The notes under the pieces: generated by a model | Told to the model about the DNA's origin: nothing | The model's database searches: none | Seen by the model: only the letters and a program-made list of their open reading frames with translations | Shown here: positions 3,604 through 33,184 of the stretch, piece by piece | Layout: each line of letters begins with the position of its first letter | Numbering within the stretch: the first letter of the stretch is position 1 | Source of the DNA: Candidatus Hecatella orcuttiae | GTDB lineage: Archaea; Thermoproteota; Bathyarchaeia; Hecatellales; Hecatellaceae | Assembly: GCA_002011035.2 (NCBI GenBank) | Contig: MTLY02000003.1 | Location: 241,194-305,193, forward strand | DNA: 64,000 bases | Direction: 5' to 3' | Made by a program: the position numbers and the translations under genes

Positions 3604-4332
3604 ATGGCTAAGGCTAAGGGTAAAGTCGTCGAGCAGGTGCTCGTTCAGGCCGCCAAGCCCGGTCAAAGACGGCAGGTGGCCGAGGAGCTGAAGAAGGCGG
3701 AGGCGGAGGGCCGGCGGTTCCACGGCTTCAAAGCCGACCTCAGGTACACCAGCCCCGAGTTCACCGTCACAACGCCCATCCGCTACGAGAAGCTCACCGC
3801 CAAGGACGTGGAGGCCCGCATGAAGATCGTGCACCGCCACGTCAGCGGCGTCGAAGTCTCCCTCCGGCCGACACCCTACCACTGGGCGTACATGGACGCG
3901 GAGGGCCGGGAGTACCCGGAGGCCGAGGTCCGCCACTACCAGCTGCTCCCCGACGGCCGGGAGGTGGAGGTGCAACCGTTCCCCAGGACCAAGGTCTTGG
4001 AGGTCAAGAAGCTGCTGCCAGCCACCAGCCTCAGCGAGTTCCTCGTCGAAGGCCTCTACGAGGTCTGGTCCGACGCCCCAGGGCAGCTGCTGGAGTTCGC
4101 CGAATACCTCCAACGCAAGGACGCCATGGCCGTGAGCAAGCTGAGCTTCGGCCGGGGCTTCAAGGAAAGCTACGCCCTCATCTACCCCATCTTCCAGGAC
4201 GGCCGCTTCATCCTGGTGATGGCCCTGACCCAGAAGCGCGTCGAATACCGCCACTGGATGCCGGTGGAGGCTCAGGAGGCGAAGCCGAGGGAGGCTGTGC
4301 CCGTGGCCCAGTCGGTCTTGGAGGAAATCTAA
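3604..4332 (+). CDS. Ku-like DNA end-binding protein (putative)
   Basis: 242 residues from ATG 3604, preceded by TTTTCGGGGATTTTCG. The order of elements follows prokaryotic Ku: a DAEGREYPEAEV segment like the D-G-x-V of the Ku core, an RTKVLEVKKLLP segment, LSEFLVEGLYEVW, a helix with LLEFAEYL, then AVSKLSFGRGF and a closing pair of strands IYPIFQDGRFILVMAL. Ku homodimers encircle broken DNA ends and recruit a LigD-type ligase. An ATP-dependent ligase gene lies 3 kb downstream in the same train. The N-terminal 50 residues are basic and not part of the core. I recognise this by pattern only, so a remote relative is possible. Confidence 0.5.
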   Translation: MAKAKGKVVEQVLVQAAKPGQRRQVAEELKKAEAEGRRFHGFKADLRYTSPEFTVTTPIRYEKLTAKDVEARMKIVHRHVSGVEVSLRPTPYHWAYMDAEGREYPEAEVRHYQLLPDGREVEVQPFPRTKVLEVKKLLPATSLSEFLVEGLYEVWSDAPGQLLEFAEYLQRKDAMAVSKLSFGRGFKESYALIYPIFQDGRFILVMALTQKRVEYRHWMPVEAQEAKPREAVPVAQSVLEEI

Positions 4333-4935: not shown

Positions 4936-5466
4936 TTGGAAAAGCTCTTCACCGACCTAGCCTTCGCGCTATCCCCCACCATCATCACCCACCAAGGCGG
5001 TTGGGGAGACACCGTTCCAGAGTGGCTGGTCGCAGAGATAAAGCTACAGAGGCTCGCCGAGAACCTGAGGAGGCTGAAGGGTGAAGCCGTCGAGGAGGCC
5101 GGCGACGCCGAGGCTCTGGCCTACCTGTACACGGCCTTCCTGAGCGTGCCGCCCTCCGAGAAGTGGACGAGAATCTACTCCTACCTCCTCGGTAAGGTTG
5201 CCCGCGGCAGGCTCCGGGTTCCCTCAGAAATCGAGGTCAAGGAGCTCTCAGATTACGAGCAGGAGAAGCTCCGGGAGCTGAAGCGGTGGATTTACAGGAA
5301 GCGGGCTGAAAGGGAAAGGCAGCGGCGCGGAGAGGAAGGCCTCGGAGTGCTTCAGCCCCCAAACCGGGCTTCAGCCAGCCTCAGAGCCCGCAGGGCGTGG
5401 GTTAAAATCTACCGGAGGCGAGGCCAAGAGGATAAGGCCAAGGCTTTGGAGGAAGCCTTAGCCTAA
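4936..5466 (+). CDS. Helical protein with an AWVKI-type C-terminal tail
   Basis: 176 residues from TTG 4936, seven bases after TTTTTCGGGG. It is mostly helical, with a basic central region (RKRAERERQRRG). Its last 30 residues (RAWVKIYRRRGQEDKAKALEEAL) match the C-terminus of the PCNA-fusion protein at 15366-17243 (KAWVKIWLKRGRRDRAEQLADEL). This points to a shared interaction or targeting tail. Function is otherwise unknown. Confidence 0.65.
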   Translation: MEKLFTDLAFALSPTIITHQGGWGDTVPEWLVAEIKLQRLAENLRRLKGEAVEEAGDAEALAYLYTAFLSVPPSEKWTRIYSYLLGKVARGRLRVPSEIEVKELSDYEQEKLRELKRWIYRKRAERERQRRGEEGLGVLQPPNRASASLRARRAWVKIYRRRGQEDKAKALEEALA

Positions 5467-6978: not shown

Positions 6979-7192
6979 ATGTCCTGAATGCGGTGAACCC
7001 CTTAACGGAGTCTACTTTGATACCAGCGAATACTACGTCTTCGACCCGTCTGCCGGAACCTACCTTTCAGACGAAAAATCTGGCGAAGGCTACACAAAAT
7101 GTCCCAAATGCGACGCAGACCTTTTCGACCTATTCCCCAACGGCCCCATAAACTTCAAACCCAAACCCAGCACAAAGGGAGCGACCCGATGA
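6959..7192 (+). CDS. Zinc-ribbon protein
   Basis: 77 residues from ATG 6959, with GAGGTGG nine bases upstream, a canonical binding site rather than the close CGGGG leader. CPECGE at residues 8-13 and CPKCDAD near residue 48 form a split zinc ribbon around a tyrosine-rich strand segment. Codons are AT-richer than the neighbours. The stop overlaps ATGA at 7190. Confidence 0.65.
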   Translation: MSMGPPKCPECGEPLNGVYFDTSEYYVFDPSAGTYLSDEKSGEGYTKCPKCDADLFDLFPNGPINFKPKPSTKGATR

Positions 7193-7257
7193 TAACTCTA
7201 GGCTGTGCGACACTCTGGTGCACCATTCCTCTGGAGGTCATCCTTTCGGGGACAGCC

Positions 7258-8260
7258 GTGAGCATGGAAGTGGCTGAGCTTAAACCCAAACTGAAGGCTC
7301 TGCGAAGTCTCAGGGAAGTCCCGTTTACAGGCGACACGTGGCTTCAGGTGAAAGCCGACGGAGAGCTGGCCTTGGTGAAGTTTGAGGGCGGAGAGGCCGA
7401 GGCGGTGAACCGCTGGGGCACCGTCCACAGGGGGCTGCCCTGCCTCCGAGAGTTCGCCGAGGCCCTCAAGGCCAAGAGGCTTCGAAGCTTGGAGGCCTTG
7501 GCCGAGCTGTACGCGGAGGGCCTCCGCCTGCCGGAGTTCAGAAAGACCCTGACCCGGAAGCCCGAGGCGGTGAAGCTAGGCTTCTTCACCCTCCTGGCGG
7601 TCAACGGCGCCGGGGTCAAGAACGACTGGCCCTGGCAGATGGGGGAGGCTGGAGTCTTGGCTTGCAGCCAGCCGCCTGGCGGGGCCTCTGCCCTACCGGC
7701 GGGTGGTCGGCCTGCAGGAGGCGGAAGCCTTCTGGAAGGAGTGGGTGGAGGGCCGCGGCTACGAGGGCGTCGTAGCCCGGACGCCCCGGGGAGGCTTCAA
7801 AGTCAAGCCGGAGCTCACCGTGGACGCCGCGGTGGTGGGCGTCAAAAAGACCGAGCGGCTGAGGGTGGGAAGCGTGGTGACAAGCCTCCGCCTGGCCTTG
7901 ATGAGCCCGGAGGGCGACCTGGTCCATGTGGGCGATGTCTCCAGCGGCATCGACCCGGAGACCGGGCGGAGGCTCCACGCCTTGGTCAAGCACTTCGCGG
8001 TGGGCGAAGACCGGGAAGCCTACCACGTCAGGCCGGTGCTCGTAGCCGAGGTGAGGTGCTTCGACGTATACCCCGGCCTGCGGCAGGTCTGGCGCTGGGA
8101 CGGCCGCCGGTACGCAGCCCGGCAGCCCAGAAGCTTCTTCAGCCTCAAGTCTCCGGTGTTGGTCAGGTTCAGGGAGGACAAGCAGCTGAGGCCTGAAGAC
8201 CTAGCCTTGGAGCAGATTCCCGAAGCAGGCCCTTTCTCTTTCGGGGAGGGGGAACCGTGA
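7258..8260 (+). pseudogene. ATP-dependent DNA ligase, interrupted by one frameshift
   Basis: Starts at GTG 7258 or ATG 7264, after CCTTTCGGGGACAGCC. The first frame carries the nucleotidyl-lysine motif I (LQVKADGE) and a segment like FDLLxLNG (LGFFTLLAVNG). It continues one frame over, after a GGGGG run at 7641-7645, with motif IV (YEGVVAR), motif V (FKVKPE), then an OB-fold-like domain (VTSLRLALMSPEG, DVSSGID) ending at TGA 8258-8260. Joined, it is about 330 residues, the size of a LigD-type ligase domain. Motif I has Glu where Arg is usual. With the Ku-like gene at 3604 it would form an end-joining pair. Either the frameshift is an error, or the gene is decaying or recoded. Confidence 0.65.
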
Positions 8261-9043: not shown

Positions 9044-10167
9044 ATGGAAGGCCGAAGTTTAACCCCAAGCCAGCAAGCCTACCTGAAGAAGCTGGGTGTC
9101 TCCGACCCCGGCCGGTTGACCGCCGGGCAGAAGGCCTACCTCACCATCCTGGGCCGTAGGGAAGGCGTCGAGCCTCCCAAGCCCGTCAAAGCCTCAGCGT
9201 ACCAGCCTCTGGGCCCCGAGGAGCTGGCGGCCAGGGGTGTGGGAAGCCTCAGGTTCGACCGGGCCGCCGACCTGACCTGGGAGCGCTACGGCATCGTGGA
9301 GGTGCCCATAGCCTACGGAGGCCAGCCCTCCGGCTACAAGGCCGTCATCCGCAAAGGCCAGCTGGTTCAGATAGCCGGCCGGGGCTACCGCCTCCTGCCC
9401 AACGAGGAGGTTGTCCAGCTGGCGGACGAGACCGCTGAAGCCCTGGGGGCCAAGCCCTTCACCGAGTTCCGAGGCCGCTGGTTCGCCCCCATGGGCAACC
9501 ACGTCATCTACAACCGGGCTGAGACGCAGGTTCACGCCCTCTACGCCTTCGACGAGCCGGTGAAGGTGGAGGGCGTCGACACGGTGCACCTGGGCTTCGC
9601 CGTGCACAACAGCATAGACGGCAGCTGCGGCTTCGGTGTTGGCGCCTTCACGTTCCGACAGTCTTAACAGTCGCCCGGAAGTGGGTGGAAGTCTTAAAAA
9701 GGGCGGCTGTAAGACCGGAAAACGCCTGCGCCAACATGGTGCTGATGGGCCTCCGCGGCTACTCCATGCCCTTCGACGAGCGGCGGGTGCTGGCCTGGGT
9801 CTACCAGCGCCACACCTCCAGGCTCAGGGTGGACAGGCCCAGCCTCCAGGACACCATCCTCAGGGTGGTGGACCGGGGGCGGGAGGTCCTGGAAGCCTAC
9901 CGGCGGATGGCCCTCGAACGGCTCAGCGAACCCGTAGCCCGCCGGATAGCCGAGTCGGAGCTGCCCCTCCGGGTGCTGCCCGACTTCATCGAAGTCGAAA
10001 CCCTCGAAGACGGCCGCAGGGCGCTGAAGGGGTTCAGCCCCCAGGCAACCCTCTGGGACGCCTACAATTCCGTCAGCGCCGCCATCTGGCACAACGCCAA
10101 GTCGGACATCTCCACCAAGCTCGACCAGTTCAACGTCCTCCACGCAGCCCTGCCCCTGGCACGGTGA
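9044..10167 (+). pseudogene. DUF932-like phage/plasmid protein in two frames
   Basis: Starts at ATG 9044 after CCTTTCGGGGACCACC. The N-terminal 60 residues carry a twice-repeated SLTPSQQAYLKKLG / LTAGQKAYLTILG unit. The middle (GRGYRLLPNEEVVQLAD, HNSIDGSCGFGVGAFTF) and the C-terminal part (CANMVLMG, LWDAYNSVSAAIWH) follow the DUF932 order. The first frame stops at TAA 9665-9667; the second is open well before 9685 and ends at TGA 10165-10167. One -1 shift between about 9630 and 9660 joins them to roughly 370 residues. DUF932 proteins are common on phages and plasmids; their role is unclear. Confidence 0.6.
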
Positions 10168-12124: not shown

Positions 12125-13060
12125 ATGTGGAAAGTTTATCTTGCGGATTGTTTTGAATGGATGAAGAAATGTGAACCTAACGAGTTTATAGCCATAGTTA
12201 CTGATCCACCCTACAGTCTAGAAGAGTTTAAACGTGAAAACTTAGAGAAAATGAAACGTGGGAGCGGAGGGGTATGGCGTATACCACCTAAAATAGGGGG
12301 GGTTGAGAGGAATCCATTACCTCGCTTTACAGTTTTCTCGGCAGAACATCATAAAATTATGTTTAACTTCTTTCACAATTGGGCTAAACTGGCTTATAGG
12401 GTGCTTGTACCTGGCGGGCATCTTGTAATAGCCTCAACACCAATTTTTCTTCCTACGGTTGCACATGCCATCATAGAAGGGGGGTTTGAGCCTAGAGGCG
12501 TAATAGTCAGACTTGTTCAAACGTTAAGGGGAGGATTTAGACCCAAAAATGCAGAAGAAGAATTTAAGGAATTGTCTACGATACCTAGAGCACATTGGGA
12601 GCCTTGGGCGATATTCCGAAAACCTATCGAGAAAGGGTCAACAGTGGCGGAGAACTTGAAAAAATGGAAGTCCGGGGCCTTAAAAAGAGAACCCGACGGA
12701 AGACCGTTCCCTGACGTTATACCGAGTGAAAGAACCCCCAAAGAGGAGGAGGCTATAGCACCCCACCCTACACTTAAACCCCAAAGTTTTATGCGTAGAA
12801 TAATACGAGCAGTAGTGCCACTTAATGAAGGAAAAGTGCTTGATCCATTTTGTGGAGCTGGTTCAACCATAGCGGCTATCGAAGCCCTAGGTTTTGACGG
12901 TATTGGCATAGAGGTTAACCCTGAATATTATGAAATGGCCCTTAAAGCTATTCCTCAATTAGCGAGGGTAAATGTTGACCCATGGCTCTTTGAAAGGAGA
13001 ATAAATAAAGGGAGTAAAATGTTAGTGTTAACAGAATTTCTGTTAAAAGAAGGATGCTAA
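12125..13060 (+). CDS. Type II DNA methyltransferase (DPPY-type)
   Basis: About 311 residues from ATG 12125, with GGGG seven bases upstream. Motif IV TDPPYS is near residue 27, and the SAM-binding motif I region VLDPFCGAGSTIAAIEALG is near residue 240, followed by FDGIGIEVNPEYYEMA. This order (DPPY before the F-x-G-x-G loop) is that of beta-class amino-methyltransferases modifying adenine N6 or cytosine N4. The neighbouring nuclease converges on it and the 3' ends overlap by 18 bases. Codons are much AT-richer than the surrounding train, so the cassette was acquired separately. Confidence 0.85.
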   Translation: MWKVYLADCFEWMKKCEPNEFIAIVTDPPYSLEEFKRENLEKMKRGSGGVWRIPPKIGGVERNPLPRFTVFSAEHHKIMFNFFHNWAKLAYRVLVPGGHLVIASTPIFLPTVAHAIIEGGFEPRGVIVRLVQTLRGGFRPKNAEEEFKELSTIPRAHWEPWAIFRKPIEKGSTVAENLKKWKSGALKREPDGRPFPDVIPSERTPKEEEAIAPHPTLKPQSFMRRIIRAVVPLNEGKVLDPFCGAGSTIAAIEALGFDGIGIEVNPEYYEMALKAIPQLARVNVDPWLFERRINKGSKMLVLTEFLLKEGC

Positions 13061-13621
13061 GTTACTTTTCCCAAGATTACGTTCAAAGACTTTTTTCATC
13101 TTTTTATCCCAAGATTTTTTCTCAACAGAAGCCGTTATCGTCCTCTTGCTTTCATCGCTTCTTCCACGCCATATGAAGTCGTCTTCAGATAATTCTCCAA
13201 GCCAAACTACTCTAAAACTTGGTAGTCCTCTATCATCTGTGTCATATTCAGCTACAAGAAACCAACCGCTTGTAACGTTATGTCCTACAGTACTCCAAGG
13301 GCTTCTCATCGTAGCTTTAACTTCGATTCCTACGCCAGTAGTCGGATTCTTCAGGTCTGGAAAAGCCGTATTTGGAAGTTTTTTAAACCCGCTTAACCTA
13401 TCTAGCAACCTTGTCATAAAATCGCTAACTAAGCCACTATATTGATTATGTCTAATTAATTGAGCAAGAGGTGGAATGTCATGAGTTGCTGAGCCATCAT
13501 TTATTGCCTTAAATATTTTCTTAACTTCTAACAGTGTTTTCTCTAAATGTTCTATTGTAAGTCCTTTAGGCATAGGTACATCATAGAAAATGCCATCAAG
13601 CATTTCTGACCTCTTATTCAT
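13043..13621 (-). CDS. Type II restriction endonuclease (PD-(D/E)XK)
   Basis: 192 residues from ATG 13621 on the minus strand, with AAAGGAGATGATAA as a strong ribosome-binding site. The catalytic core is FPDLKNPTTGVGIEVKATM (about residues 86-105): PD, a linker, then E-x-K. A basic C-terminus follows. Placed tail to tail with the methyltransferase, it should cut the sequence which that enzyme protects. The specificity is unknown. Confidence 0.75.
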   Translation of the reverse strand: MNKRSEMLDGIFYDVPMPKGLTIEHLEKTLLEVKKIFKAINDGSATHDIPPLAQLIRHNQYSGLVSDFMTRLLDRLSGFKKLPNTAFPDLKNPTTGVGIEVKATMRSPWSTVGHNVTSGWFLVAEYDTDDRGLPSFRVVWLGELSEDDFIWRGRSDESKRTITASVEKKSWDKKMKKVFERNLGKSNLASFF

Positions 13622-14962: not shown

Positions 14963-15176
14963 AGAGGTGGGGAAAGGCGTTTACAGGGTTTTCCCCGACA
15001 AGGACGACTACCTGATAATCTACACCAGCCGCGGAGCCGTGGACATCGACCTCAAAACCCTCACCATCGACCTGAACCCGGACGCCACGGCCAGCTTCAA
15101 GGTTACCGGCTACGACAGGAAGCTGAGAGCCCTCACCCTTCACAAGCCCGAGCGGGCCTCTTTCGGGGTAGGGTGA
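14952..15176 (+). CDS. Hypothetical beta-rich protein
   Basis: 74 residues from TTG 14952. Alternating strands (GVYRVFPDKDDYLIIYT, AVDIDLKTLTIDL, ASFKVTGYDRKLRALTL) suggest a small barrel. Its last codons read through a junction motif (TCTTTCGGGGTAGGG), and the stop overlaps the next ATG (TGATG). Confidence 0.55.
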   Translation: MKVEEVGKGVYRVFPDKDDYLIIYTSRGAVDIDLKTLTIDLNPDATASFKVTGYDRKLRALTLHKPERASFGVG

Positions 15177-15328
15177 TGTGGGATAAGAGGATATGTGCCT
15201 CTTGCCTCAGAAGACGAGGCTGCGCTTTGAAGAACACGCCCCTAAGGATGGCGTGGGTATGCTTCGAGCAGGACCCTGACCAGCCGCCGCCCGATAAGCG
15301 AGCAGGGCTGCTGGAGGCGGATGTCTAA
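15176..15328 (+). CDS. Cysteine-rich miniprotein
   Basis: 50 residues from ATG 15176. C-x2-C, then C and a further C (ICASC, GCALKN, WVCFEQ) give four cysteines in 24 residues, a possible zinc site or small iron-sulphur protein. It overlaps the previous stop and ends just before the motif preceding the PCNA-fusion gene. Confidence 0.55.
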   Translation: MWDKRICASCLRRRGCALKNTPLRMAWVCFEQDPDQPPPDKRAGLLEADV

Positions 15329-15365
15329 GGCTCCCGGAGCTGAGGGCGGCTCTTCGGGGATACCC

Positions 15366-17243
15366 ATGGACAGCTCTAAGACAGACCAACCGACCAAGCA
15401 GGCTAAAGGGCGACTCCGAGTCGACGGCCCCTTCCTCAAAGGCCTCATCGCCTGGATGCAGCGGGTGGCCGGAGAGGCCACCATCACCCTCGACGCCGAA
15501 GGCCTCCGGTTCGCCTACATGGACCCCAGCCATGTGGCCATGGCCGCGGGCAGGCTGACGCCCCAGGCCTTCGCCGAATACGCGGTGGCCCAGGCCGGCT
15601 GCTTCGCCGTGGACCTGGCAGACCTGGCGAAGGCGCTCAAAGGCGTCAAGAAAGGCGTGGAGGTCGGCGTCTCCGTGGACGAGAAACATGTGGCGGTAAG
15701 CTTCGACGGCGAAACCGTCCGCCTGCCGGTGCTGCCGCCCAGCGACGAGGCAGACCCACCCGAGCCCAAGCTGGCCCACGAGGCTCGGCTGAGGCTGATG
15801 CGCGGAGCCCTGCTGGACGCGGTGCGGAAGGCGGGGCAGGTGAGCGACCAGCTGGTCCTGAAGGCCACGCCCAACGCCCTCCTGGTCAGGGCGTTCAGCG
15901 AAACAGGCGACTACGAGAAAACCCTAGACCGCCACGGCGCATACATGCTGGACTTCCACAGCCCCTCCAACCGAACCGTCAAAGCCCTCTACGGAGCCTC
16001 GTTCCTCGAAGACCTCCTCACCTTCCCCGCGGAGCTGGTCACCGTCGAATTCTCCACCGAAAAGCCCGTGGCCCTCACCTTCGAGGACTACGCCTGGACG
16101 GTTCGAGGGTGGCTGGCTCCGAGGATCGGAGGCGAATACGAGCCCCGGGTCACGGTCAGGCTCTTGGAGGGCCACCCGGGAGTCTACGACGAGGACGGCC
16201 AGTTCCACGGAGCCCAAGGCTTCAAGGCCGGTGAAATCGCCACCCTCCCCCGGTCTGCCGCGGCCAGGCTGCTGGAAGACGGCAGAGCCGCCCTGAAGCT
16301 GACCCCGGACCCGGCTGAGGGCGTGGAGCCCCTGCCCCTGGGGGCGGTGAAGCTGAAAAGGCGGAGCAAGGGCAAAGGGTGGCTGCTCAGCCGCAGCGGA
16401 GACACGGCCAAGGACGACGCCGAGCAGCTGGCAGGGAGGCTGCTGAAAGCCCTGGAGGCGGCGGAGGGGGACTACCCCGGCAGGCTGCTGGCCGCCGAGA
16501 AACCCTACACCGGGCAGGAGGCCACCCTCTACGTCATGGCGGAGCGCAGCCGGAAAAGCTACGCCCACGCCGGCCGCTACGGGCTGCCGGTGGTGAAGGT
16601 TCTGGAAGTCGCCGAGGAACCCTTCGGCGAGCACCCGTCCTACGGCTACACCGACTGGAAGCCGCTGGAGGCGGAAGGCGAAGAAGCTGAGCAGGCTGCC
16701 AAGGCCGCTGCCGCCGAGCAGGCGGAGGAGGCGGAGGCTGGCGAGGAAGAAGGCGGAGGCTGCGAGTGGAGCCGCAGCGAGGAGGCTGACCGATACAGGG
16801 AGGAAATGCGCCGTCTGGACGAGGAGCTGAGGAAACTCGGCCTCCTGGAGGAGCTGCGAGGCCTTGAAACCCTCAAAGTCAGAGAGCTGGCCGAGAGGGT
16901 GAAAGCCCAACCCGGCGAAGCCGTCCTCGCCACCCTAGACCGGGCCCTAGCCGTCCACGAGGAGTTCTACCGCAAACTCTACGCAGCCTACGGATGGAAA
17001 CTCGAAGACCTAAAGGAAGGACAGGCCCCCGAGGTCTCCGACATTTTAAAGATGAGGCGATGGCTCACGGGATTCCTGAAGCGGAAAGCCGAAAAACCCG
17101 AGCCCAAGCCCGAAGGCACAAGGCGGGCTAAGAAGGCGTGGGTGAAGATTTGGCTGAAGCGAGGCCGGAGGGACCGAGCCGAGCAGCTGGCCGACGAGCT
17201 GGGCATCAGCCTGGAGGCTGTGGAAAAGGAGCTGGAAGGCTAA
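15366..17243 (+). CDS. PCNA-like sliding clamp fused to a long C-terminal region
   Basis: 625 residues from ATG 15366, chosen because TCTTCGGGGATACCC directly precedes it. Residues 1-265 follow archaeal PCNA: GLRFAYMDPSHVAMA near residue 50, a DLADLAKALKGVKKG segment, an acidic interdomain region, and LAPRIGGEYEP where PCNA ends with LAPRIE. Normal PCNA is about 245 residues. Here 360 more follow: a basic segment with AGEIATLPRSAAARLLEDG, an Ala/Glu-rich linker (about 440-480), helices, and a tail KAWVKIWLKRGRRDRAEQ shared with the protein at 4936. PCNA tethers polymerases and nucleases to DNA, so the extension may bring an element-specific partner. Confidence 0.75.
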   Translation: MDSSKTDQPTKQAKGRLRVDGPFLKGLIAWMQRVAGEATITLDAEGLRFAYMDPSHVAMAAGRLTPQAFAEYAVAQAGCFAVDLADLAKALKGVKKGVEVGVSVDEKHVAVSFDGETVRLPVLPPSDEADPPEPKLAHEARLRLMRGALLDAVRKAGQVSDQLVLKATPNALLVRAFSETGDYEKTLDRHGAYMLDFHSPSNRTVKALYGASFLEDLLTFPAELVTVEFSTEKPVALTFEDYAWTVRGWLAPRIGGEYEPRVTVRLLEGHPGVYDEDGQFHGAQGFKAGEIATLPRSAAARLLEDGRAALKLTPDPAEGVEPLPLGAVKLKRRSKGKGWLLSRSGDTAKDDAEQLAGRLLKALEAAEGDYPGRLLAAEKPYTGQEATLYVMAERSRKSYAHAGRYGLPVVKVLEVAEEPFGEHPSYGYTDWKPLEAEGEEAEQAAKAAAAEQAEEAEAGEEEGGGCEWSRSEEADRYREEMRRLDEELRKLGLLEELRGLETLKVRELAERVKAQPGEAVLATLDRALAVHEEFYRKLYAAYGWKLEDLKEGQAPEVSDILKMRRWLTGFLKRKAEKPEPKPEGTRRAKKAWVKIWLKRGRRDRAEQLADELGISLEAVEKELEG

Positions 17244-22704: not shown

Positions 22705-25263
22705 TTAATTAGCTTGATTTAGGGTTATTGCAGGTGTGAAGGTTATATTACTGTTGCCGCCTTCGCTTTTCACTAGAATTCGATGGACTTTACTTGCGTC
22801 GATTCCTTCCAGTTGCGTATGAGTTATTAAAAAGATCTGTCTAAATGACTGATCCTGGATGAGGCTATTCATTACGCTTGGACGGCGCATGTAATCCAAG
22901 CTGGCGAGTGGTTCATCCATAATGAGGCAGTTGATTATCGGTGCTCTCAGTTTTTCTGTTTTGAATGGTCTAACTCTAGCCATCAGTCGGGAGATGGCCA
23001 TTCGGAGGGCCAGGCCTAGTGCGACCTTATCGCCGCCACTCAGGTTTCCTCGAAACTTCTGAAAACCATCCATTAGGTCATTTAAAGTTAGGTCTACACC
23101 TATAGTTTCACGTCCACCCCTGACTACATGGGATGTTGAGTATATCTCTTGAACCTGATATCTGCCCGTCGTGAAAGCGAAAAGATAATTGTTGGTAGCA
23201 TCTTTTAAAGCGCTGAAGAGGCGTGTCTGAATAATGTACTCTGATATGAAGCCGCCGACGGTTGTCCGAAGGTATCTAACATGTTTAAGTCTTTCTTCTT
23301 TCTTTTTCTTCTCCTTCTCTTTTTGGTTCAGCTGACTGATGGTCTCTTTTAAATATTTTAGCTCTTCCATCTGCTTTTTGACTTCCGCTTTAAGCTCTTT
23401 AACTCTCTCCGCATTATTCTGATAGTCTCTTTCTAATGCAATCCTTAAGTCTCTGAGGCTTTCAAGACTGTCTACTGCAAAGTCCTTTAATATCACCTCA
23501 ACACTTGCGTATTTCAAGTCAGCCAGAATATTGTCAAGTTTTGATGTAGCTTCTTTCTTCGCTCTAATTAATTTGTTCCTTTTTCCCAGGTCTCCTTTGA
23601 TTTCAGTGGCCGCCTTCTCTATCGCTTTTTGCTCTTTACCTATCTTCTTAGGAATCTCTTTCAAATCTCCCTCAAGTCGTTTTATTTCACTTTCGAGTAG
23701 AGCTCTCACTGAAATTAGTTCATCAATATTCTGGATCTGATAAGTCTCCAAAAATTTCTCTAAGGATGGAAATCCGATGGATCCAAGTTTGTGTGTGAAG
23801 GAATTATTTTCTTTTATTAACCTATTACATATCCCTTCGAGTCTCCTAAAGATTGAGAACAGATCGCGTAATGCTTTGCATTCTTTGTTTAGGTCTTTAA
23901 GTTTCTTATCTGACCGTACTTTCTTTTCCGACATCTCGGCAACCGTTTGTTCAATACCTTTGAGCCGCTTTTCCAGCCTAGAGAGGATGTATTTCCTTTC
24001 ATCATCTGAGACCACCGGTCTAAGACATGAGGGGCACTCGCCTTCTTTTTCAAGCCTCTCTGCACTTAATTCTTTAAATTTGACCTCTGCCTTGAGGAGA
24101 GCCATGTTATCTTTAAGCTTCTCTAGTTCTTTCTCAACTTCTTCCAGTTGGGCTTCTCTTTCCTGAAGCTGTTTCTCTACCGTTGGAGTCTCGTCTTTAA
24201 CCCTGTGTGGGTGTTCCTCAGGCTTAAAATTTAGTGCTAAGTTCTCGTCTTTTACAAGTTCCTTTATCTGGCTCTGAAGCTCAACAATCTTTTCATGATG
24301 CCTATTGATCTCCTTTATTTTATCTAGGGTCGGTATGTTCCCTAATTTTTCCGTGGCTCTTCGTAAATCCGCTTCTGCTTTTTCTTTATTTTCTTGTAGA
24401 GTTCTTAGCTCTTTTTCATGCTCGGCTTTTTCATCGGTGGATCGTCTGATCTTCTCCTCTAAATGTCCTAGTTCCTTCTCAGCTTGAGCGACATTATCCA
24501 ATAGCTCTTTGATACTAGATATGGTGTCTTTTTCTGGAATTCTTTTAAGCTCAACCTCAATCTCGCGTTGGCTCTTTTCCAGCCGCTTCTTGTGTTCCTC
24601 AAGTTCAGATATCTTCTCTTCAAGTCGTTCCTTATCCCTTTCTTTATCGGGTAGCTTTGCCGTTTCTCGTTCGATCTCATGGATCTCCCTCTCTAAAGCT
24701 TTTTCATCCTGCAGAAGTATATCGGAGTGTATCTGATCCAATTCGTCGAGGTTGAACAATGTGCTGATAATACTTCGGAGCAGTGTAGGTGGTGCGGTAG
24801 CTAGGGAATCAACTTCCCCCTGTCGGATGAAGACAGTGTGCAATGCGTTCTCTCTCGATATGCCCATTAATTCTTCAAGCTTAGATTCTACACGTCCGCT
24901 ACCCTCTTCCATTACTACGAATTTATCGCCAGAACGTCTGCTCAAAACCGCATCAGCACCTGTCTTTCCCCGCATGTATCTTCTGATAACCTGATATTCC
25001 TCACCACCCACTTCAAATTCTAATGTTACCTTACATTCAGAGTGTTTCTTTTTCACAAGCTGGTCTTGTTTCTCAACCGGAACCGCAAGTGTTCCCCATA
25101 GAGCCCATAAAATTGCCTCTATTAGACTGGTCTTGCCGCTCGAGTTTAAGCCTTCAACAACGAAGAGACCTTCAGGAAGACTCTGAGCGAAATCCCCAGA
25201 AGGTAGCTCAATCTTATCGAAAGGCTTAAACCGTTCGGCGATAAGCCTTAAAACCTTCATCAC
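22705..25263 (-). CDS. rad50: Rad50/SbcC-type SMC ATPase
   Basis: 852 residues. Walker A GLNSSGKTS near residue 38, a long coiled coil broken at about residue 410 by CPSC (the zinc hook that joins two molecules), then the signature NLSGGDKVALGLALRMA and Walker B CLIMDEPLASLD near the C-terminus. Rad50 works with the Mre11 nuclease to hold, open and trim DNA ends. The genes overlap by 38 bases. Its clustering with NurA and HerA is the archaeal end-resection set, but here it stands opposite a helicase and a methyltransferase inside a mobile element. It may be a second copy specialised for defence or for element maintenance. Confidence 0.93.
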   Translation of the reverse strand: MMKVLRLIAERFKPFDKIELPSGDFAQSLPEGLFVVEGLNSSGKTSLIEAILWALWGTLAVPVEKQDQLVKKKHSECKVTLEFEVGGEEYQVIRRYMRGKTGADAVLSRRSGDKFVVMEEGSGRVESKLEELMGISRENALHTVFIRQGEVDSLATAPPTLLRSIISTLFNLDELDQIHSDILLQDEKALEREIHEIERETAKLPDKERDKERLEEKISELEEHKKRLEKSQREIEVELKRIPEKDTISSIKELLDNVAQAEKELGHLEEKIRRSTDEKAEHEKELRTLQENKEKAEADLRRATEKLGNIPTLDKIKEINRHHEKIVELQSQIKELVKDENLALNFKPEEHPHRVKDETPTVEKQLQEREAQLEEVEKELEKLKDNMALLKAEVKFKELSAERLEKEGECPSCLRPVVSDDERKYILSRLEKRLKGIEQTVAEMSEKKVRSDKKLKDLNKECKALRDLFSIFRRLEGICNRLIKENNSFTHKLGSIGFPSLEKFLETYQIQNIDELISVRALLESEIKRLEGDLKEIPKKIGKEQKAIEKAATEIKGDLGKRNKLIRAKKEATSKLDNILADLKYASVEVILKDFAVDSLESLRDLRIALERDYQNNAERVKELKAEVKKQMEELKYLKETISQLNQKEKEKKKKEERLKHVRYLRTTVGGFISEYIIQTRLFSALKDATNNYLFAFTTGRYQVQEIYSTSHVVRGGRETIGVDLTLNDLMDGFQKFRGNLSGGDKVALGLALRMAISRLMARVRPFKTEKLRAPIINCLIMDEPLASLDYMRRPSVMNSLIQDQSFRQIFLITHTQLEGIDASKVHRILVKSEGGNSNITFTPAITLNQAN

Positions 25264-26515
25264 TTTTCCTCCATTTTTTCATTGCCTCGACGAAGAGTTC
25301 AGTCAGCAGATTTAGGTTGTACTCCTTGGGAATGAGGTTCTTTTTCCTCTTTTCTTCTATGTAGTTTTTGAAGTCCTTCGCGGGATCTTCTATCAGATAC
25401 TCTATGTCCACATAACTGATGCTGGGTGGTAAGGTTGAAGCCTTTATGGGTGGTCGGCCAATTTTTAGTTGAATTATATTCAGGTTCCTGTCTGAAAGCC
25501 CTTTATTATATGCATAGTCGATTGCCTCAGAAATTTGGGTCACATTTCTACCAGATATTTCCCCTTCTAATGCTATCCTTACCCGCGCGGCCGTTTCGTA
25601 ATCGTACGGTTTTCTAAAGCCCAGATTATCCAGTAGGTTAAAGATTCTCTTTACGATATCATGGGAAGAATCGTCAAGCTGAACTTGAACCGTTTCATTT
25701 ACCATAGGTCTTGGCAGAGTTAAATGGACTTGTCTAATATCCGGTGCTTTATCCTTGTCTGCTTGAACGATGAGAAAACCTTTCTTATGGTCTTTCTCGT
25801 CGAATTTCCATCTCTCCGTCGAGCCAGAAAACCATGCCTTTTCTGTGACGCGACGCATACAGTGTTCATGTCCAAGGGCAATATAGTCGAATTCCATATT
25901 TAGAATAGTTTGGTCAAGAGTTCCATCAATTGGAGAGCCGTGGGCTATCGCTATATTAATTTTGTCTTTGTCTAGTTTTATGCTCTTGAGCCACTGCTGG
26001 TACTCTTCATACAAACCTATGGTTTCAAGAGTTGATGGTTCAATGTATGGAAACGCATAAACTCTAACTTCATCTTTTATATCAGCATATAATGGTTGCT
26101 TTTCACGGAATGTCTCTCTGAAACTCCAGTAAGTAAAAGCTCGTGTGTTATCGAAGGCGATAGCATACTCGTCCAATGTAGAATGCTTATATTCGACGTA
26201 ACGACCATGATTTCCGTCGATGATTACAATGGGTATGTTTGCTGATTGGAGGTCTCTAAATGCTTTTGCAACAATTTTTCTAGCCATCTCTGGCGGAGGA
26301 TAGGGATTGTATGACCATGGAGAATCGAATAAGTCTCCAGAGTGAATAACGAGGTCAATCTCATCTTTCCGGTCAACAATCTCTTTTACAGTCATTTCCA
26401 ATGCCTTGTAGAAGTCGTCCTCAACAGGACGAACTTCTTGCCCTATTGTTCCAGGTCTCACATCATCGGGTCTATGGCCCAGATGGGTATCGGAAACATG
26501 AGCTATGACTACCAA
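25226..26515 (-). CDS. mre11: Mre11-type nuclease
   Basis: 429 residues. Calcineurin-like phosphodiesterase motifs appear in order: DTHLGH (residues 9-14), SGDLFDS (about 61), DGNHGR (about 105), HGSPIDG and ALGHEH (about 215). These bind the two metal ions for exo- and endonuclease activity. The C-terminal region would contact Rad50. It lies between herA and rad50 in one operon, 21 bases after herA. Confidence 0.93.
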   Translation of the reverse strand: MVVIAHVSDTHLGHRPDDVRPGTIGQEVRPVEDDFYKALEMTVKEIVDRKDEIDLVIHSGDLFDSPWSYNPYPPPEMARKIVAKAFRDLQSANIPIVIIDGNHGRYVEYKHSTLDEYAIAFDNTRAFTYWSFRETFREKQPLYADIKDEVRVYAFPYIEPSTLETIGLYEEYQQWLKSIKLDKDKINIAIAHGSPIDGTLDQTILNMEFDYIALGHEHCMRRVTEKAWFSGSTERWKFDEKDHKKGFLIVQADKDKAPDIRQVHLTLPRPMVNETVQVQLDDSSHDIVKRIFNLLDNLGFRKPYDYETAARVRIALEGEISGRNVTQISEAIDYAYNKGLSDRNLNIIQLKIGRPPIKASTLPPSISYVDIEYLIEDPAKDFKNYIEEKRKKNLIPKEYNLNLLTELFVEAMKKWRKSDEGFKAYRRTV

Positions 26516-26536
26516 AATTTATACCTCCCTAATTAG

Positions 26537-28306
26537 TTATAACACGGTTTTTGACCTTACCGGAGTTCCAGCCTTTGTCTGATACAGGGTCCTAGTCTTT
26601 TCATAGAGCGAGTCGAAAAGGGGTGTATAGATGACTAGTGGAGTATCTCGGTAACTTGCTGTTAGAATGATTTCACCTTTACCCAGAACTTTAAATTCGT
26701 TTTCAAAGCCGGTAATATCTTTGCTTGCATTAGAGATTGCTGCCCTTATCTCGTCTGCACTTGTTAAAGACATATTGAACTGTGTATTAATGCAGGATAA
26801 GATAATGTTATCCAGGGCTGTAACCTGCTGACTAATAACCGCCAAACCTAGCCGAAACTTTCGGCCCTGTCGGGCTATATCCTTGTATATGTTTTCAAAC
26901 CTCATTATACGAGGTGTCAGAACCGATGGGGCTTCTTCTACCGTTATCAGAATGGGAGGCAACTCGTCTATTCTCCTCATTTCTTGTTCATCTTTGGAGT
27001 AATATTTCTTGGCTATGGACTGCCCTTTATTTCCGACAAAGTGTTCCCTAAACGTTCGTGGAATTCTTCTCTTCAGAATTTGGGCTTTAAATTCGCTCCA
27101 ATTTGTTGACGATTTGACAGCCTTTCTTAATTCAAAAATGGTCCTTGCGATTACTGTTGTGGAGAGGAATTGTTCTAAATCCGAAAGGAGGCTGGTGTTG
27201 AATATAAGAATTCTGCCCTGCTCCAAGGCTTCAATTATCTTTATTAAAGTTGATTGTTCTGGGTTATCTACAAAGATGGCTGAACGTCTCACGAATTCCA
27301 GCCGCCTTTCTACGGCATTTATTGTTACATCAGGATATCGACCGCTAAAGTCTTCACCTATTTGGGTAATCCAATTTTCGTGGAAGTGTGCATACAGAGC
27401 GTTCATGTAACTGACCATTTGGTCGCTGACTTCCATGATTGAGGTGATGTCCAGCGGTAATATTTCTTGGTAGGCAATTCTTACATCTAATGACAACCTT
27501 CGAACGGCCTCAGCTGCCGTTTCACGGTGGGGTGTAAGGTAATAAAAGTCTTTGAAGAGTTCTCTTTTCGCTTCATCAGGCATTGAGTCTACAATAGACT
27601 GTATCCCATATTTTCTGATTCCCAAAGCAAACTCATCGTGGGGGTCTATGGCCAGCATTGAAGCTCTCTTACTATCACCACTCTGCCAAGACTTGAAGTT
27701 AAAGTCTACCACCGATTTTAGGAAAACTAGGAGGAAATTTGACTTTCCAGCGCCCGTAGTTCCAAAGATCCCTATATGTGTTGAGATGTGTTCTAACGGC
27801 AGATTTACTCTGACATTTAACACCTCTTCGCCTGCTAACAGGCTTCCTACAAAGATCTCTCCTTTCAGTTGACTGGATAGGATCTGTTCGATGGGTCTGT
27901 CACTTTTGTTAGGAATAGGCCGATAAATTATGGCAAAGTGTTCTGGAAGACGCCTAGGCATTTTAAAGTCCCATGAATGAGAACCTTCACCGCCAGCTTC
28001 AGCATATCCGAGTAGTTTCCCTGTAAGGTAAAGAAGTTTCTCTTTCTCAGCGCTGGCTAGATAGGCATCTCCCTCTACCACAAGAGTATCTGCGACCTTG
28101 CTTAACTCCCTTATCCGTCTTAGAATATTTATACAATCCATAGCGCGAAACAGAAAGATTCTCTTTCGACCTCCTCGTGTTGAGGGGATGAGGAACAATT
28201 CGCCTACGGCAACATCTTCATTTTTGGCTGATAAAGCCAATTCTGTGACTGAGCTCTCTGCTAATCTACCAAATCCTTCTGCCCATTTATCTATATCAAA
28301 ACTCAT
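26537..28306 (-). CDS. herA: HerA hexameric DNA translocase
   Basis: 589 residues. IGIFGTTGAGKSNF (about residues 176-190) is the Walker A of the FtsK/HerA class, preceded by a HAS-type N-terminal barrel. ITVEEAPSVLTPR is the Walker B, followed by RQGRKFRLGLAVISQQ. HerA rings pump DNA into the NurA nuclease. It begins two bases after nurA ends, as in most archaeal pairs. Confidence 0.92.
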   Translation of the reverse strand: MSFDIDKWAEGFGRLAESSVTELALSAKNEDVAVGELFLIPSTRGGRKRIFLFRAMDCINILRRIRELSKVADTLVVEGDAYLASAEKEKLLYLTGKLLGYAEAGGEGSHSWDFKMPRRLPEHFAIIYRPIPNKSDRPIEQILSSQLKGEIFVGSLLAGEEVLNVRVNLPLEHISTHIGIFGTTGAGKSNFLLVFLKSVVDFNFKSWQSGDSKRASMLAIDPHDEFALGIRKYGIQSIVDSMPDEAKRELFKDFYYLTPHRETAAEAVRRLSLDVRIAYQEILPLDITSIMEVSDQMVSYMNALYAHFHENWITQIGEDFSGRYPDVTINAVERRLEFVRRSAIFVDNPEQSTLIKIIEALEQGRILIFNTSLLSDLEQFLSTTVIARTIFELRKAVKSSTNWSEFKAQILKRRIPRTFREHFVGNKGQSIAKKYYSKDEQEMRRIDELPPILITVEEAPSVLTPRIMRFENIYKDIARQGRKFRLGLAVISQQVTALDNIILSCINTQFNMSLTSADEIRAAISNASKDITGFENEFKVLGKGEIILTASYRDTPLVIYTPLFDSLYEKTRTLYQTKAGTPVRSKTVL

Positions 28307-28308
28307 TT

Positions 28309-29577
28309 TTATTCAAGTCCTATTCTTCGTCTAGGATTTAAGAGGGATTCCTCAGAAAAACCCTCTTCTTTACCTATTTCGATAACTCTCTCATAGAATA
28401 GATCTCTGTCCTCTCTAGTTAGGCTGCAGGATAGATGTGCAAAAGCTGGAGGACAAGGATAACCATACCATCTTGCGTCATGGGACATGAAGTCTATCTC
28501 TCGGAAAATATTGATTTCATTCATTCGCATCTTTTCCGCGTTATTATCATAAATCTTTGACTCCCACCACCTACGGTCAAAGTCCACCCTAAACGCGGGC
28601 ATTGAGCTGGTGAAGCTGAAAAGATACGTTACACCTAATTCGGGGGGTATGCGTCGCTTCCGACATATTTTCAACTTTCCACCAGGGTCATCATTTCCGG
28701 GAATCCTACAAAACCAGTGAGCGTCGGGTCCATACTTCCTTCTCGCAAGTTGGATTATTTTCTCACCACCTGGGATCGTATGAGACTTACTGAGAGCCAT
28801 AACAATTACGCCTTCTTTTCGAGCCCTGAAGCACAAATCCCTCAACATATAATCATGGAGAAGGTGAGGGTAATCATATCTGGCCGGGAAGAGAAGAGTA
28901 AGAGTTGTGTCCAGTATCACGTATTTTAGGTTAAGGTTCGAGTCTAACGCCCTCTTTGCCATCGAAATTTCCGCAGACCACCTAAGCATGTCAAGTATTC
29001 TCTCAGGAAGATGAACTGGTGGACTGATAACGAAGTCGCTTATGTCTGATTTTCCATATTTCCTTAAAATTTTGTCAACCGAATCTAACTTACCCTTTGT
29101 ATAGTCGATGAAGTATGGGACCAACAAGTTATTCAAGTCATTGATCAGATAGACACGTTTCACATAATCAACAAAGTTTTGCCATAGAACATCCTCATCA
29201 AAAGACGACCAGAAGGCCACGGTTAACCTTCCACCATCAGGAATATACCCTTGGTTCCTTAACTCTTTCAGCTCCATTATTCGACCATCATTTGTTCCCG
29301 TATTGTGAACCGTTAACCCCACAGTTATTAGATACAGGAAGACATCCTCATATTGAACTACTGGAGCCATACCACTTCCATCAACAGCCCCTATCAGAAA
29401 ATCATTTTCAAATTTGTACCCTGATGGAAAGGGCTTAAAACTAACTAAAAGCTCTTCAATCCTCTGAAGATCGCTGTCAAATAGATTTGCCTGAGCTATG
29501 TCACGATTCTTAATTTGGCGATAAGCAGACCGAACTTCATTTTCAAAGTCGGACGCGAAAGCCCGATCTGAAATCAT
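28309..29577 (-). CDS. nurA: NurA 5'-3' nuclease
   Basis: 422 residues from ATG 29577. GAVDGSG (Asp near residue 66) is the first metal-binding motif of NurA, and YVILDTTLTLLFP carries the second acidic site. NurA forms a dimer that docks on HerA and degrades DNA ends. It is the first gene of the leftward operon, divergent from the regulator at 29668. Confidence 0.9.
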   Translation of the reverse strand: MISDRAFASDFENEVRSAYRQIKNRDIAQANLFDSDLQRIEELLVSFKPFPSGYKFENDFLIGAVDGSGMAPVVQYEDVFLYLITVGLTVHNTGTNDGRIMELKELRNQGYIPDGGRLTVAFWSSFDEDVLWQNFVDYVKRVYLINDLNNLLVPYFIDYTKGKLDSVDKILRKYGKSDISDFVISPPVHLPERILDMLRWSAEISMAKRALDSNLNLKYVILDTTLTLLFPARYDYPHLLHDYMLRDLCFRARKEGVIVMALSKSHTIPGGEKIIQLARRKYGPDAHWFCRIPGNDDPGGKLKICRKRRIPPELGVTYLFSFTSSMPAFRVDFDRRWWESKIYDNNAEKMRMNEINIFREIDFMSHDARWYGYPCPPAFAHLSCSLTREDRDLFYERVIEIGKEEGFSEESLLNPRRRIGLE

Positions 29578-29605
29578 TAAAGGAACCCTTCTTCTAAGGC
29601 TTGAC

Positions 29606-29671
29606 CCATAGATATATTAAGTTTTGATGATATTTATAATTAAAGGTACCATAGATTGGTGCTATCTATGG
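29606..29671. promoter_or_regulatory. Divergent promoter with three CCATAGAT operator half-sites
   Basis: CCATAGAT occurs at 29606-29613 and 29649-29656, and its reverse complement ATCTATGG at 29664-29671. The last two form an 8-bp inverted repeat with a 7-base spacer that covers the regulator's ATG. AT-rich TATA-like sequences lie between (29611-29642). This fits a repressor that shuts both the nurA operon and its own helicase operon. Confidence 0.65.
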
Positions 29672-29871
29672 TTAGCAAATACGAAAAAATAATCTATGAG
29701 ATGCTTAGCTCAGAGCCAATAACCCCTAATGAAATTGCCCAAAAACTAAAAATAACGTATAAGACTGCTCAGAGAGCACTATTACATCTAGCGCTTACAA
29801 AGGAAGATATTGGATACAGAAACTCGGGGCGCATACACATTTTCTGGAAGAAAGACTTAGCAGAAGACTAA
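29668..29871 (+). CDS. Winged-helix DNA-binding regulator
   Basis: 67 residues from ATG 29668; TTG 29656 is a weaker alternative. SSEPITPNEIAQKLKITYKTAQRALLHLAL is a helix-turn-helix, followed by a wing (DIGYRNSGRIHIFWKK). Its start lies inside the inverted repeat, implying autoregulation. It is 24 bases upstream of the helicase gene and divergent from nurA, so it likely controls the whole island. Confidence 0.8.
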   Translation: MVSKYEKIIYEMLSSEPITPNEIAQKLKITYKTAQRALLHLALTKEDIGYRNSGRIHIFWKKDLAED

Positions 29872-29895
29872 ATTGAAGGTGAGGTTGAGCCCATC

Positions 29896-32800
29896 TTGGA
29901 AATTTTAGATAGACTTAAGAACAACATTTTTGAAGATGCATTATCATTTGACCTTCGTACCCAGGCAGAGTATTTATCTCTTACTCGAGATGTTGATTAT
30001 CCTTTCTCGGCGTTAACCTCAAAGGCAAAACTATTGCCTCATCAAGTTGGAGTTGCCCATAAGGTCTTGAGCAGTATCAGGTCCGGCAGCCTATTGGCGG
30101 ATGAAGTAGGGCTTGGAAAAACGATCGAGGCCGGCATGATTCTTAAGGAGTACTTATGTCGAAAGCAGATTAAGAAGATTCTAATACTAACTCCGGCGTC
30201 ACTCACAACTCAGTGGCGTGACGAATTGAAATCGAAATTTGACGAAGGTTTCGTCATATATGATCAAGAAACGAGGAAAAATCTAGAGAGACGGCATGAA
30301 AACATTTGGAAAGCATATGACAAGGTTATTTGCTCAATAGATACAGCTAAACAACAACGTTACCGGAAGGATATAGTAACCGTCAACTGGGATATTATAA
30401 TAGTTGATGAGGCTCATAAATTAAAGAACAGGAAAACCGAGAACTATAAGCTCTTAGAGGACTTACCTAAAAACCGCGTCTTTTTTCTGACCGCAACTCC
30501 GCTTCAAAATAAGCTAGAAGAGTTATATAATCTAATTAGCCTAATAGATGAGAAACTACTTGGAACGTATGACTCTTTCTCGATGAGATTTGTTGACGAT
30601 ACAAAAGGCTTGGTTCCTAATAATTTTGATGATTTGAAGCAACGTCTCCAAAAAGTAATGATTAGAAACAGGAGAAAAGATGTTTTTGGTGTAAGGTTCA
30701 CGCAACGTTTTGGTGAAACAATTCCGTTTGAGTTGACTCCGGAAGAAAGAAGGCTGTACGACGAAGTGACAAAGTATGTCAAACAAGAATACTTGAAGGC
30801 TATGGAGCAGAACAAAGCTGGAAGAGGGTTTCTGCTCATTATCATGCAAAGAATGGTCTGTAGTAGTAGCTTCGCCATAAGAGATTCGTTAGGGCGTCGA
30901 ATTCAACGTCTGGTAAAGATCTCTAAAGAGTATGACATAGTGCCTAAGCAACCTTCTCTGACGAGCATCAGCCACCCATATTTTGAGGCTTTAGGCGTAA
31001 ATCATACTGCCACTAAAGATGAGATAAAAGCTGCTTATCGAACTTTGGCAAAGGAATACCATCCAGATATTTCGCCGCTACCTAAAGATGTTGCAGAGGA
31101 AAAGTTTAAGGAAATATCAGAGGCCTATGAGACGCTGACCGACGACAACAAAAGGAAGCGACTTATTGAGGAGCATGAGGATGCCGATATAAGTGATATC
31201 GCAAAAAATTTCACTCTGCTTCAGATGGAGCTAGAAAAACTTAATCAACTTTATGAATTAGCAAGCAAAATCACCAAGAACAGCAAAGGCGAAAAACTTA
31301 TTGAGGCCCTCGAAGCGTTGAAGCGAGAAGAGCCAAACGAGAAAGTTCTTATATATACCGAATTCAGGTCAACACAAAGGTACCTTTATGAGCTTTTGAC
31401 CTCAAAAGGCTATGAAGTCGCAATATTCAACGGCTCAATGAGTGTAGAAGAAAAGGATGAAGCAGTTAAGCAATGGCGTGAGAACAAACAGATAATGGTC
31501 TCAACTGAATGTGGAGGAGAAGGAAGGAACTTTCAGTTCTGCCACATAATGTTTAACTACGACCTTCCTTGGAATCCTATGAGAGTGGAACAGAGGATAG
31601 GTAGAATTCATCGGATAGGACAGGAGAAGAATGTGAAAATATTCAACTTCTCAACTAAAGAAACCATCGAAGAGTATGTGTTAGAATTACTCGAGACAAA
31701 GATTCAACTGTTCAAGGAAGTTATCGGTGAGCTTGATCTAATACTAGGCGATATAGTCGAGGATGCCAATCTTGAGAGGGTGATAATGGAAATCTTAGTT
31801 AAGGCTAAGACTTCCCAAGAGTTGAAGGAGAACTTCGAAGAGCTTGGCAGAAAGATACAGATAGCAAGAGAAGAGTTTAAGAAGGGTCTTAAAGACCTCG
31901 ATGAAAGGGTTTATGCCGGGTTTGACCTCTCAGTTTATCGCCGAGTGATGGGAACTGAGCTTGAAAATCTAGTAATGAAAGAGAGAATAGTCATAAAACG
32001 TTTTTTCCTAAACTATTTAAAGAGTAAAAATTTAGACTTTAGATATCTAGAGCCGGAAGAAGCAGTTATATTCCAGATACCAGAGGAGTTTAAAAATATT
32101 ATAAGTGATTTTGCGCAGAAGCAACGTCAATTTTACCTTAGAGAGCGAGATAGATTTTATGAATTGCTGGAAAAACCGCTTGAAATAGCTAAAGATATTC
32201 ATGGGTTTATAGAGGATTGCGTGTGTAAGCTATGTAGTGGTCATACGATAAAATCCTGTTTCAATTGTTCAATTCATACGTATTTAGAGAATGTTGCCTT
32301 CCATGCGAATGCAGGATTTACTTCTATTCTGAAAAATGACCTTGACTATGTAACTTCTAATCGCTTTCGAGAGGATGTAGAAGGAAGAATTCTCAGAGGC
32401 AAGATCAAGGCTAGAGCTACATTTTCACCTGAAGTTGCACAGCAAGAAAACATTGAGTTGATCACTATTGGAAACAGGTTAGTCGAAAATGCGATTGAGG
32501 AATGCAAAAAGAAAGGACTGACCACCAAAAAACTGATAGACCTAAGCAAACATACGCTTAGAGGGTTTGAAAAATACAGTGGATTAAGAGGAATATTATT
32601 TAATTTTAAGGTTTCTTTCGAATCCTTCGATAAGAAAGAAGAGTTAATTCCAATTGTGATCGATTTAGACCATATGAAATATGAAGAAGAACTCTCAGGT
32701 GAGGTTAATTGGCTTTATAGCACCGAGCTTTTAGACCAAATTGCCATTAAATCAGATGAAGTCGACGAGGCCTATCAATTGGCGGTAAACGAGTTAAACA

Positions 32801-33171
32801 CTAAGGTAAAAACTGAACTCGAAAAGATAAGAGGGAAGAATAAGATGTATTTCGAGGATGAGCTAAACAAGATTGAAACATACTACGACGATATTAGACA
32901 CACCATGATTTTGAAGGAACGTGAATTGGAGGATAAATACGTAGACCTGATAGGCAGAATAAGGAACAGCCGTGAATTTGAAGCCAGAGAAAAATACAGA
33001 GAAGAACAGAGGAAAATTGAGATTCAACTAACGAAGTTGAGAAACGAAAATAACAGATTCTGGGAGGAGATGGTTAATAAAAGAGCTAAAGAGCTGAAAA
33101 AGCTTGAAGAACAAAATACAATAAAAACTAAGATAGAATTAATTAATTCAGCCCTCATTAAAATCAGTTGA
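29896..33171 (+). CDS. SNF2/RapA-type helicase with a DnaJ domain inserted between its lobes
   Basis: 1091 residues from TTG 29896. Lobe 1 has motif [15 protein letters not shown] (about 69), motif [14 protein letters not shown] (about 170) and motif [12 protein letters not shown] (about 198). At residues 355-430 comes a complete J domain: [21 protein letters not shown], then YHPDIS (the HPD motif) and [15 protein letters not shown]. Lobe 2 resumes near 465 and ends with IGRIHRIGQ. Near residue 774 CVCKLC and CFNC form a likely zinc site, followed by coiled coil. SNF2 enzymes translocate on duplex DNA, and those of the DISARM DrmD type act in phage defence. J domains recruit and activate Hsp70. 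The next gene is a nuclease-methyltransferase. Confidence 0.9.
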
Positions 33172-33184
33172 GGGTCCCCGACTG

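Follow-up and report, generated by a model that had tools for sequence, protein, structure and literature searches.

A PCNA sliding clamp with a GINS B-domain-like extension in an integrated element of a Bathyarchaeia archaeon

Described relatives of the fusion

Archaeal proteins that join PCNA to other sequence are already on record. VP1 of Haloarcula californiae icosahedral virus 1 (HCIV-1, Sphaerolipoviridae), reported in 2016, is a 1608-aa virion protein with two PCNA domains (PMC4958249), which corrects a preliminary description of the present locus that knew of no such fusion in archaea. In our analysis VP1 (L067 3472-8298) has a partial PCNA N-domain (residues 7-90), a full PCNA (364-603) and a helix-hairpin-helix domain near the C-terminus, with no detectable GINS-like module. 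Extended PCNAs of 400-500 aa occur in several eukaryotic viruses (giant viruses). GINS B domains are known from GINS, with a related domain in archaeal primase, and the published topology of GINS B and the C-terminal domain of PriS (PriS-CTD) is b-b-b-b-a-b (b, strand; a, helix) (PMC2861644). The small subunit of PolD (DP1) binds GINS15, which also binds GAN and inhibits the DP1 exonuclease (PMC6741145).

The protein described here is encoded in the 64,000-nucleotide stretch of DNA that we analysed (the window). Like VP1, it is an archaeal mobile-element protein that combines PCNA sequence with a long further polypeptide; VP1 differs in being a virion protein with a helix-hairpin-helix domain and one partial plus one full PCNA domain. 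It resembles archaeal PCNAs, those of the host family most closely, in having a full-length clamp with conserved motifs, but adds a 34-aa leader and a 370-aa C-terminal extension and lies on a long branch, at about 35% identity to the host PCNA. The first added part shares its predicted strand and helix order, as well as profile and fold matches, with GINS B and PriS-CTD, but is joined to a clamp, not to a primase or a GINS A domain, and has lost the YGPF motif. A GINS B module has likewise been grafted, here internally, into a 539-aa element protein from a virus-like contig of Bathyarchaeia (L059 13624-15243, G547:C100; Gins51_C, E 3.7e-15), which has no clamp domain.

No other clamp joined to a GINS B-like module turned up in the phages, plasmids, IMG/VR, GTDB contigs, 398 phylum genomes and 257 class genomes that we searched, and no report of one was found in the literature searched. 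Searches with tblastn for relatives of the extension, including the virus and plasmid comparison proposed in the preliminary description, returned none from phages, plasmids, IMG/VR, GTDB contigs or the 398 phylum genomes, their reach being limited by the fast divergence of the extension. The whole fusion gave no tblastn match to 50,697 phage records, HCIV-1 included. Genomes with frames of 600 codons had raised the suspicion of a PCNA-PriL fusion; in G533, the inspected case for which no stop had been reported, there are two separate ORFs.

The fused clamp and its added module

A single open frame on the forward strand (15321-17243) encodes 640 aa from its first ATG, or 665 codons from stop to stop. 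A complete PCNA clamp (residues 35-270) is followed in the same frame by approximately 370 further residues, and the protein can be divided as follows:

15321-15422, forward strand: N-terminal leader, residues 1-34, of low complexity (pLDDT <50 for residues 1-26)
15423-16130, forward strand: PCNA sliding clamp, residues 35-270 (Pfam, PDB phmmer and NCBIfam matches; AF2 pLDDT about 80-95 over most of its length)
16140-16295, forward strand: GINS B-domain-like module, residues 274-325 (hhalign, Gins51_C and AF2 fold match)
16299-16676, forward strand: middle region, residues 327-452, modelled with low confidence (pLDDT <50)
16680-17093, forward strand: Ala/Glu-rich linker helix, then a helical region, together residues 454-591 (helices moderately confident in AF2)
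17121-17240, forward strand: C-terminal three-helix tail, residues 601-640 (pLDDT ≥90)

PCNA is fused in frame to a long extension, as the preliminary description had proposed; Pfam, PDB and NCBIfam matches identify the clamp, after which no stop follows for another 370 codons. The start given there, 15366, is an ATG of this frame but the second one (residue 16); the first lies at 15321 and overlaps the stop codon of a small upstream ORF (15173-15328), in the manner of coupled genes. GC contents at codon positions 1/2/3 are 0.71/0.45/0.87 in the clamp vs. 0.73/0.45/0.82 in the extension, and do not change abruptly where the two meet; shuffling the extension sequence leaves the frame open in only 0.05% of cases. 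Inspection of the sequence near the junction and the beginning of the module revealed no ATG or GTG, and the clamp ORF has no homopolymers of 6 or more. The architecture is known from one copy in one assembly, and no relative independently confirms the fusion.

The first 265 residues, whose failure to match PCNA profiles would have spoken against a clamp, do match them: Pfam PCNA_N aligns with residues 36-124 (E 9e-7, above cutoff), and NCBIfam archaeal clamp models cover residues 33-270 with a best E of 2.8e-31 that is nevertheless below their own curated cutoffs. Archaeal PCNA structures align with residues 41-254 (PDB sequence search, E 3e-16), two PCNA-fold domains extend over about 240 residues, and the AF2 fold also matches viral PCNAs. 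In an alignment with PCNAs of related genomes the invariant residues, MDPS-VAM included, are retained through LAPR, which bears out the earlier view that the clamp is complete to that point. The four DNA-facing inner helices have 9 Lys/Arg and 5 Asp/Glu in the element clamp vs. 7 and 8 in the host clamp; by these residue counts their positive charge is retained, as in a working clamp. The element clamp presumably forms a trimer and is loaded onto DNA.

The host genome (a 1.75-Mb assembly in three contigs) has a single chromosomal PCNA gene, adjoining that for the primase large subunit, and encodes PolD DP1. In a tree of 31 clamps the element clamp groups with PCNAs of the host family (class Bathyarchaeia) with support of 98/100, a placement that carries some risk from its long branch; the family-specific motifs SETG, ALYG and STxKPV agree with the grouping. 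Tree and motifs together show a clamp of apparent host-lineage PCNA origin.

With the Pfam model Gins51_C the match has an E of 0.018 when the full protein is scanned and of 0.0016 when the module is scanned by itself; neither passes the curated cutoff. Across the whole host genome the module is the only match apart from the true Gins51. Aligned by hhalign to a profile built from 19 Bathyarchaeia Gins51 proteins, the whole extension gives P 1.2e-4 and the module P 1.1e-5, with 47 columns aligned and 30% identity to the host Gins51; the module's score of 35.6 compares with a mean of 11.3 and a maximum of 23.1 for 200 shuffles. When every ORF in the window and at 14 other loci was compared with the Gins51 profile, one virus-like protein alone scored above the module. 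An AlphaFold model of the module, built from its sequence alone, has a pLDDT of 68; its nine best PDB matches are all GINS or CMG chains, headed by the isolated Gins51 C domains 5ghs and 5ghr (best E 5.7e-3, TM to target 0.60-0.73), and in the full AF2 model the predicted strand and helix order is the b-b-b-b-a-b of the published topology. The predicted fold is thus established as GINS-B-like, and GINS B domain is the likely family name. The "GEI-x-x-LP" segment that had been picked out by eye is real and forms part of this module.

The YGP[FY] motif between strands 3 and 4, which we treat as a common and not a defining feature of the GINS B/PriS-CTD fold, is absent from the module (HGAQGF stands in its place), while YGPF is shared by PriS-CTD, GINS B and the further copies in the comparison. 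As far as the residues can tell, the core is retained and the binding surface may not be. The Gins51 profile aligns at B-domain positions alone (132-178 of 191), the helical GINS A domain being absent, so the fusion is not a GINS protein. In Bathyarchaeia, Gins51_C also matches secreted peptide-binding proteins, in their C-terminal part and in some of them in tandem; because these secreted proteins carry the same Pfam family, the fold is portable and by itself no proof of a replication partner. Those Bathyarchaeia proteins that adjoin ABC transporter genes (L043-L047) carry a Gins51_C-like module, single or doubled, close to the C-terminus; its use outside the cell is unexpected.

The middle region has no relatives in Pfam, PHROG or tblastn searches. 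The "AWVKI" tail noticed earlier is real, and 27 of its residues (601-627) recur at the end of the protein encoded at 4936-5466. The tail-to-tail score of 75 compares with a shuffle mean of 23 and is reached by 0 of 2000 shuffles. Homology of the whole C-terminal half to that protein was rejected, as beyond the tail the two show no similarity: hhalign gives 0.3%, and once the tails are removed 526 of 2000 shuffles reach the score. A check for PIP-box-like motifs, another suggestion of the preliminary description, turned up no strict PIP box in the extension; its single loose match, KAWVKIWL, is of a type that 13% of shuffled extensions would be expected to contain.

The integrated element

The clamp gene sits in an integrated mobile element, an island of approximately 52.5 kb bounded by an 18-bp direct repeat and integrated at a tRNA gene. 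The left copy of the repeat is the 3' end of the tRNA gene and lies 12.2 kb before the window (L075 7740-7828), where the integrase gene overlaps the tRNA. To the left of the island, chromosomal genes resemble by eye those for RNA polymerase and elongation factors; to its right lies a chromosomal AIR-synthase-like gene. The element features used here are:

3604-4332, forward strand: gene for a 242-aa element protein
4936-5466, forward strand: gene for a 176-aa element protein ending in the shared tail (RAWVKIYRRRG..), of a family found in other Bathyarchaeia elements and viral contigs
7099-8260, forward strand: ATP-dependent DNA ligase gene broken by one frameshift (first frame with a KADGE motif, second with a DNA_ligase_A_C match of E 9e-8)
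9044-10167: DUF932-like gene split by one frameshift
3432, 3584, 4552, 6191, 10583, 13768 and 17253, forward strand: copies of CCC-T(4-7)-CGGG, a GC hairpin with a T loop
40307-40324, no strand assigned: right attachment repeat, CCCGGCCAGGGCGCCAAA

The stretch from 2 to 18 kb is GC-rich (0.57-0.65), except for a restriction-modification insert at 12-14 kb. All 7 copies of the intergenic motif CCC-T(4-7)-CGGG are on the forward strand within this GC-rich core, between 3.4 and 17.3 kb, and elsewhere in 124 kb there is one looser match alone. The nameable neighbours of the fusion are the DNA ligase and restriction-modification genes. With frameshifts in two neighbouring genes, the element may be in decay; the region around the clamp gene may otherwise contain sequencing errors.

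For the 242-aa protein, tblastn finds a relative (32% over 188 aa, E 4.5e-15) in the Bathyarchaeota contig CALEIY010000045.1, and relatives of the 176-aa protein occur in IMG/VR contigs. The order of these two genes and the ligase is conserved in CALEIY010000045.1, where the ligase is confirmed, which points to a related family of elements; no clamp is present in 25 kb of that contig. In the CALEIY010000045.1 element (L064 12612-19280) at least 5 different proteins, including the ligase, an AAA ATPase with a zinc finger and a VWA protein, share a VIGFYKDEKKRTRPITK-like peptide at or near the N-terminus. Two identities suggested by eye were rejected: the Ku model has no match to ORF 3604-4332, and a supposed PolB fragment left of the window has no PDB match.

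The island also holds, by eye, a Rad51-like gene, a ligase C-terminal fragment and type III CRISPR-Cas-like genes with an array. A defence-like block at 22705-36299 of the window contains SMC/Rad50-like, Mre11-like, HerA and NurA-like genes, followed by genes for an SNF2/DrmD-like helicase that has a DnaJ domain and for a IIG-type REase-methylase that is split. PIP-box-like C-termini were seen on a putative restriction enzyme encoded beside a DNA methylase gene (13043-13621, reverse strand; KSNLASFF) and on a small virus protein (L059 4143-4586, reverse strand; QKSLSNFF), and these ends could recruit host PCNA.

Possible roles of the fusion

In PCNA the C-terminus is on the docking face for polymerases and other partners. 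We tentatively favour, at a little short of an even chance, a captured host clamp equipped with a putative docking module for a partner of the GINS B domain (PolD or GAN/Cdc45). A mobile element at a tRNA gene of a Bathyarchaeia archaeon would have captured a host-lineage PCNA and extended its C-terminus, the first added part being the GINS B-domain-like module. A trimer would then place three modules at the partner-docking face, because the C-terminus is on that face. The module would bind what the Gins51 B domain binds, most likely the host PolD small subunit or GAN/Cdc45; this is proposed because Gins51 binds both DP1 and GAN, and the host has DP1. Isolated Gins51 C domain structures are available as 5ghr, 5ghs and 7e15, which we take to be complexes with GAN and DP1. 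A host polymerase or helicase module might thus be tethered to the element's own clamp without GINS, and the helical region, with the tail common to a second element protein, may bring in an element-encoded factor. The identity of the partner, the role suggested for the tail and any benefit to replication are our inferences. The fuller version, a self-recruiting clamp in which PolD (or GAN/Cdc45) is tethered directly to the ring, GINS is bypassed and the host replisome is turned to the element, seems somewhat unlikely. The earlier idea of a clamp carrying its own partner fits an extension that opens with the fold of a replication-fork protein; the takeover of replication forks proposed along with it is conjectural.

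An ordinary element PCNA, with an extension that arose by chance fusion to a neighbouring gene and serves as a passive or self-binding appendage (for solubility or trimer stability), would account for a long middle part that is predicted to be unstructured and a whole extension for which no relative was found. We consider it unlikely, as a folded GINS-B-like module and a confidently predicted tail common to a second element protein suggest selected modules, and coding bias is equally strong in extension and clamp.

A host-takeover decoy, in which the clamp would mix or compete with host PCNA while the module sequesters PolD or GAN and slows host replication, has a poorer chance. Mixing is conceivable given the host-family origin of the clamp, and inhibition of the DP1 exonuclease by GINS15 (PMC6741145) could be read in the same sense; however, at about 35% identity and on a long branch mixed rings are doubtful, and the inner positive charge is retained as in a working clamp.

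By analogy with HCIV-1 VP1 (PMC4958249), the clamp might instead be the DNA-encircling or DNA-binding part of a large structural or injected protein, its extension used for assembly and not for replication. The IMG/VR relatives of gene 4936-5466 and the use of the module fold in non-replication proteins would suit such a virion or packaging role, but VP1 is without a detectable GINS module, a scan covering part of the element genes picked out none for a capsid, portal or tail, and the nameable neighbours have other functions (DNA ligase, restriction-modification), which makes the idea very improbable.

Least probable of all is an assembly artefact or recent mutation whereby an indel error joined the clamp to a downstream gene, since, for all that the ligase and DUF932-like genes are each broken by a single frameshift and the gene is present in one assembly only, the module has no ATG or GTG at its beginning, the coding signal is unbroken and homopolymers of 6 or more do not occur in the ORF.

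The occurrence of B modules both on this clamp and on the virus-like L059 protein suggests that elements reuse the domain as a portable fork-docking tag. If binding of PolD or GAN proves true, the fusion would offer a direct test of what the mobile B domain of GINS itself does at the fork, and would represent a simple, one-protein route by which an element recruits the host polymerase.
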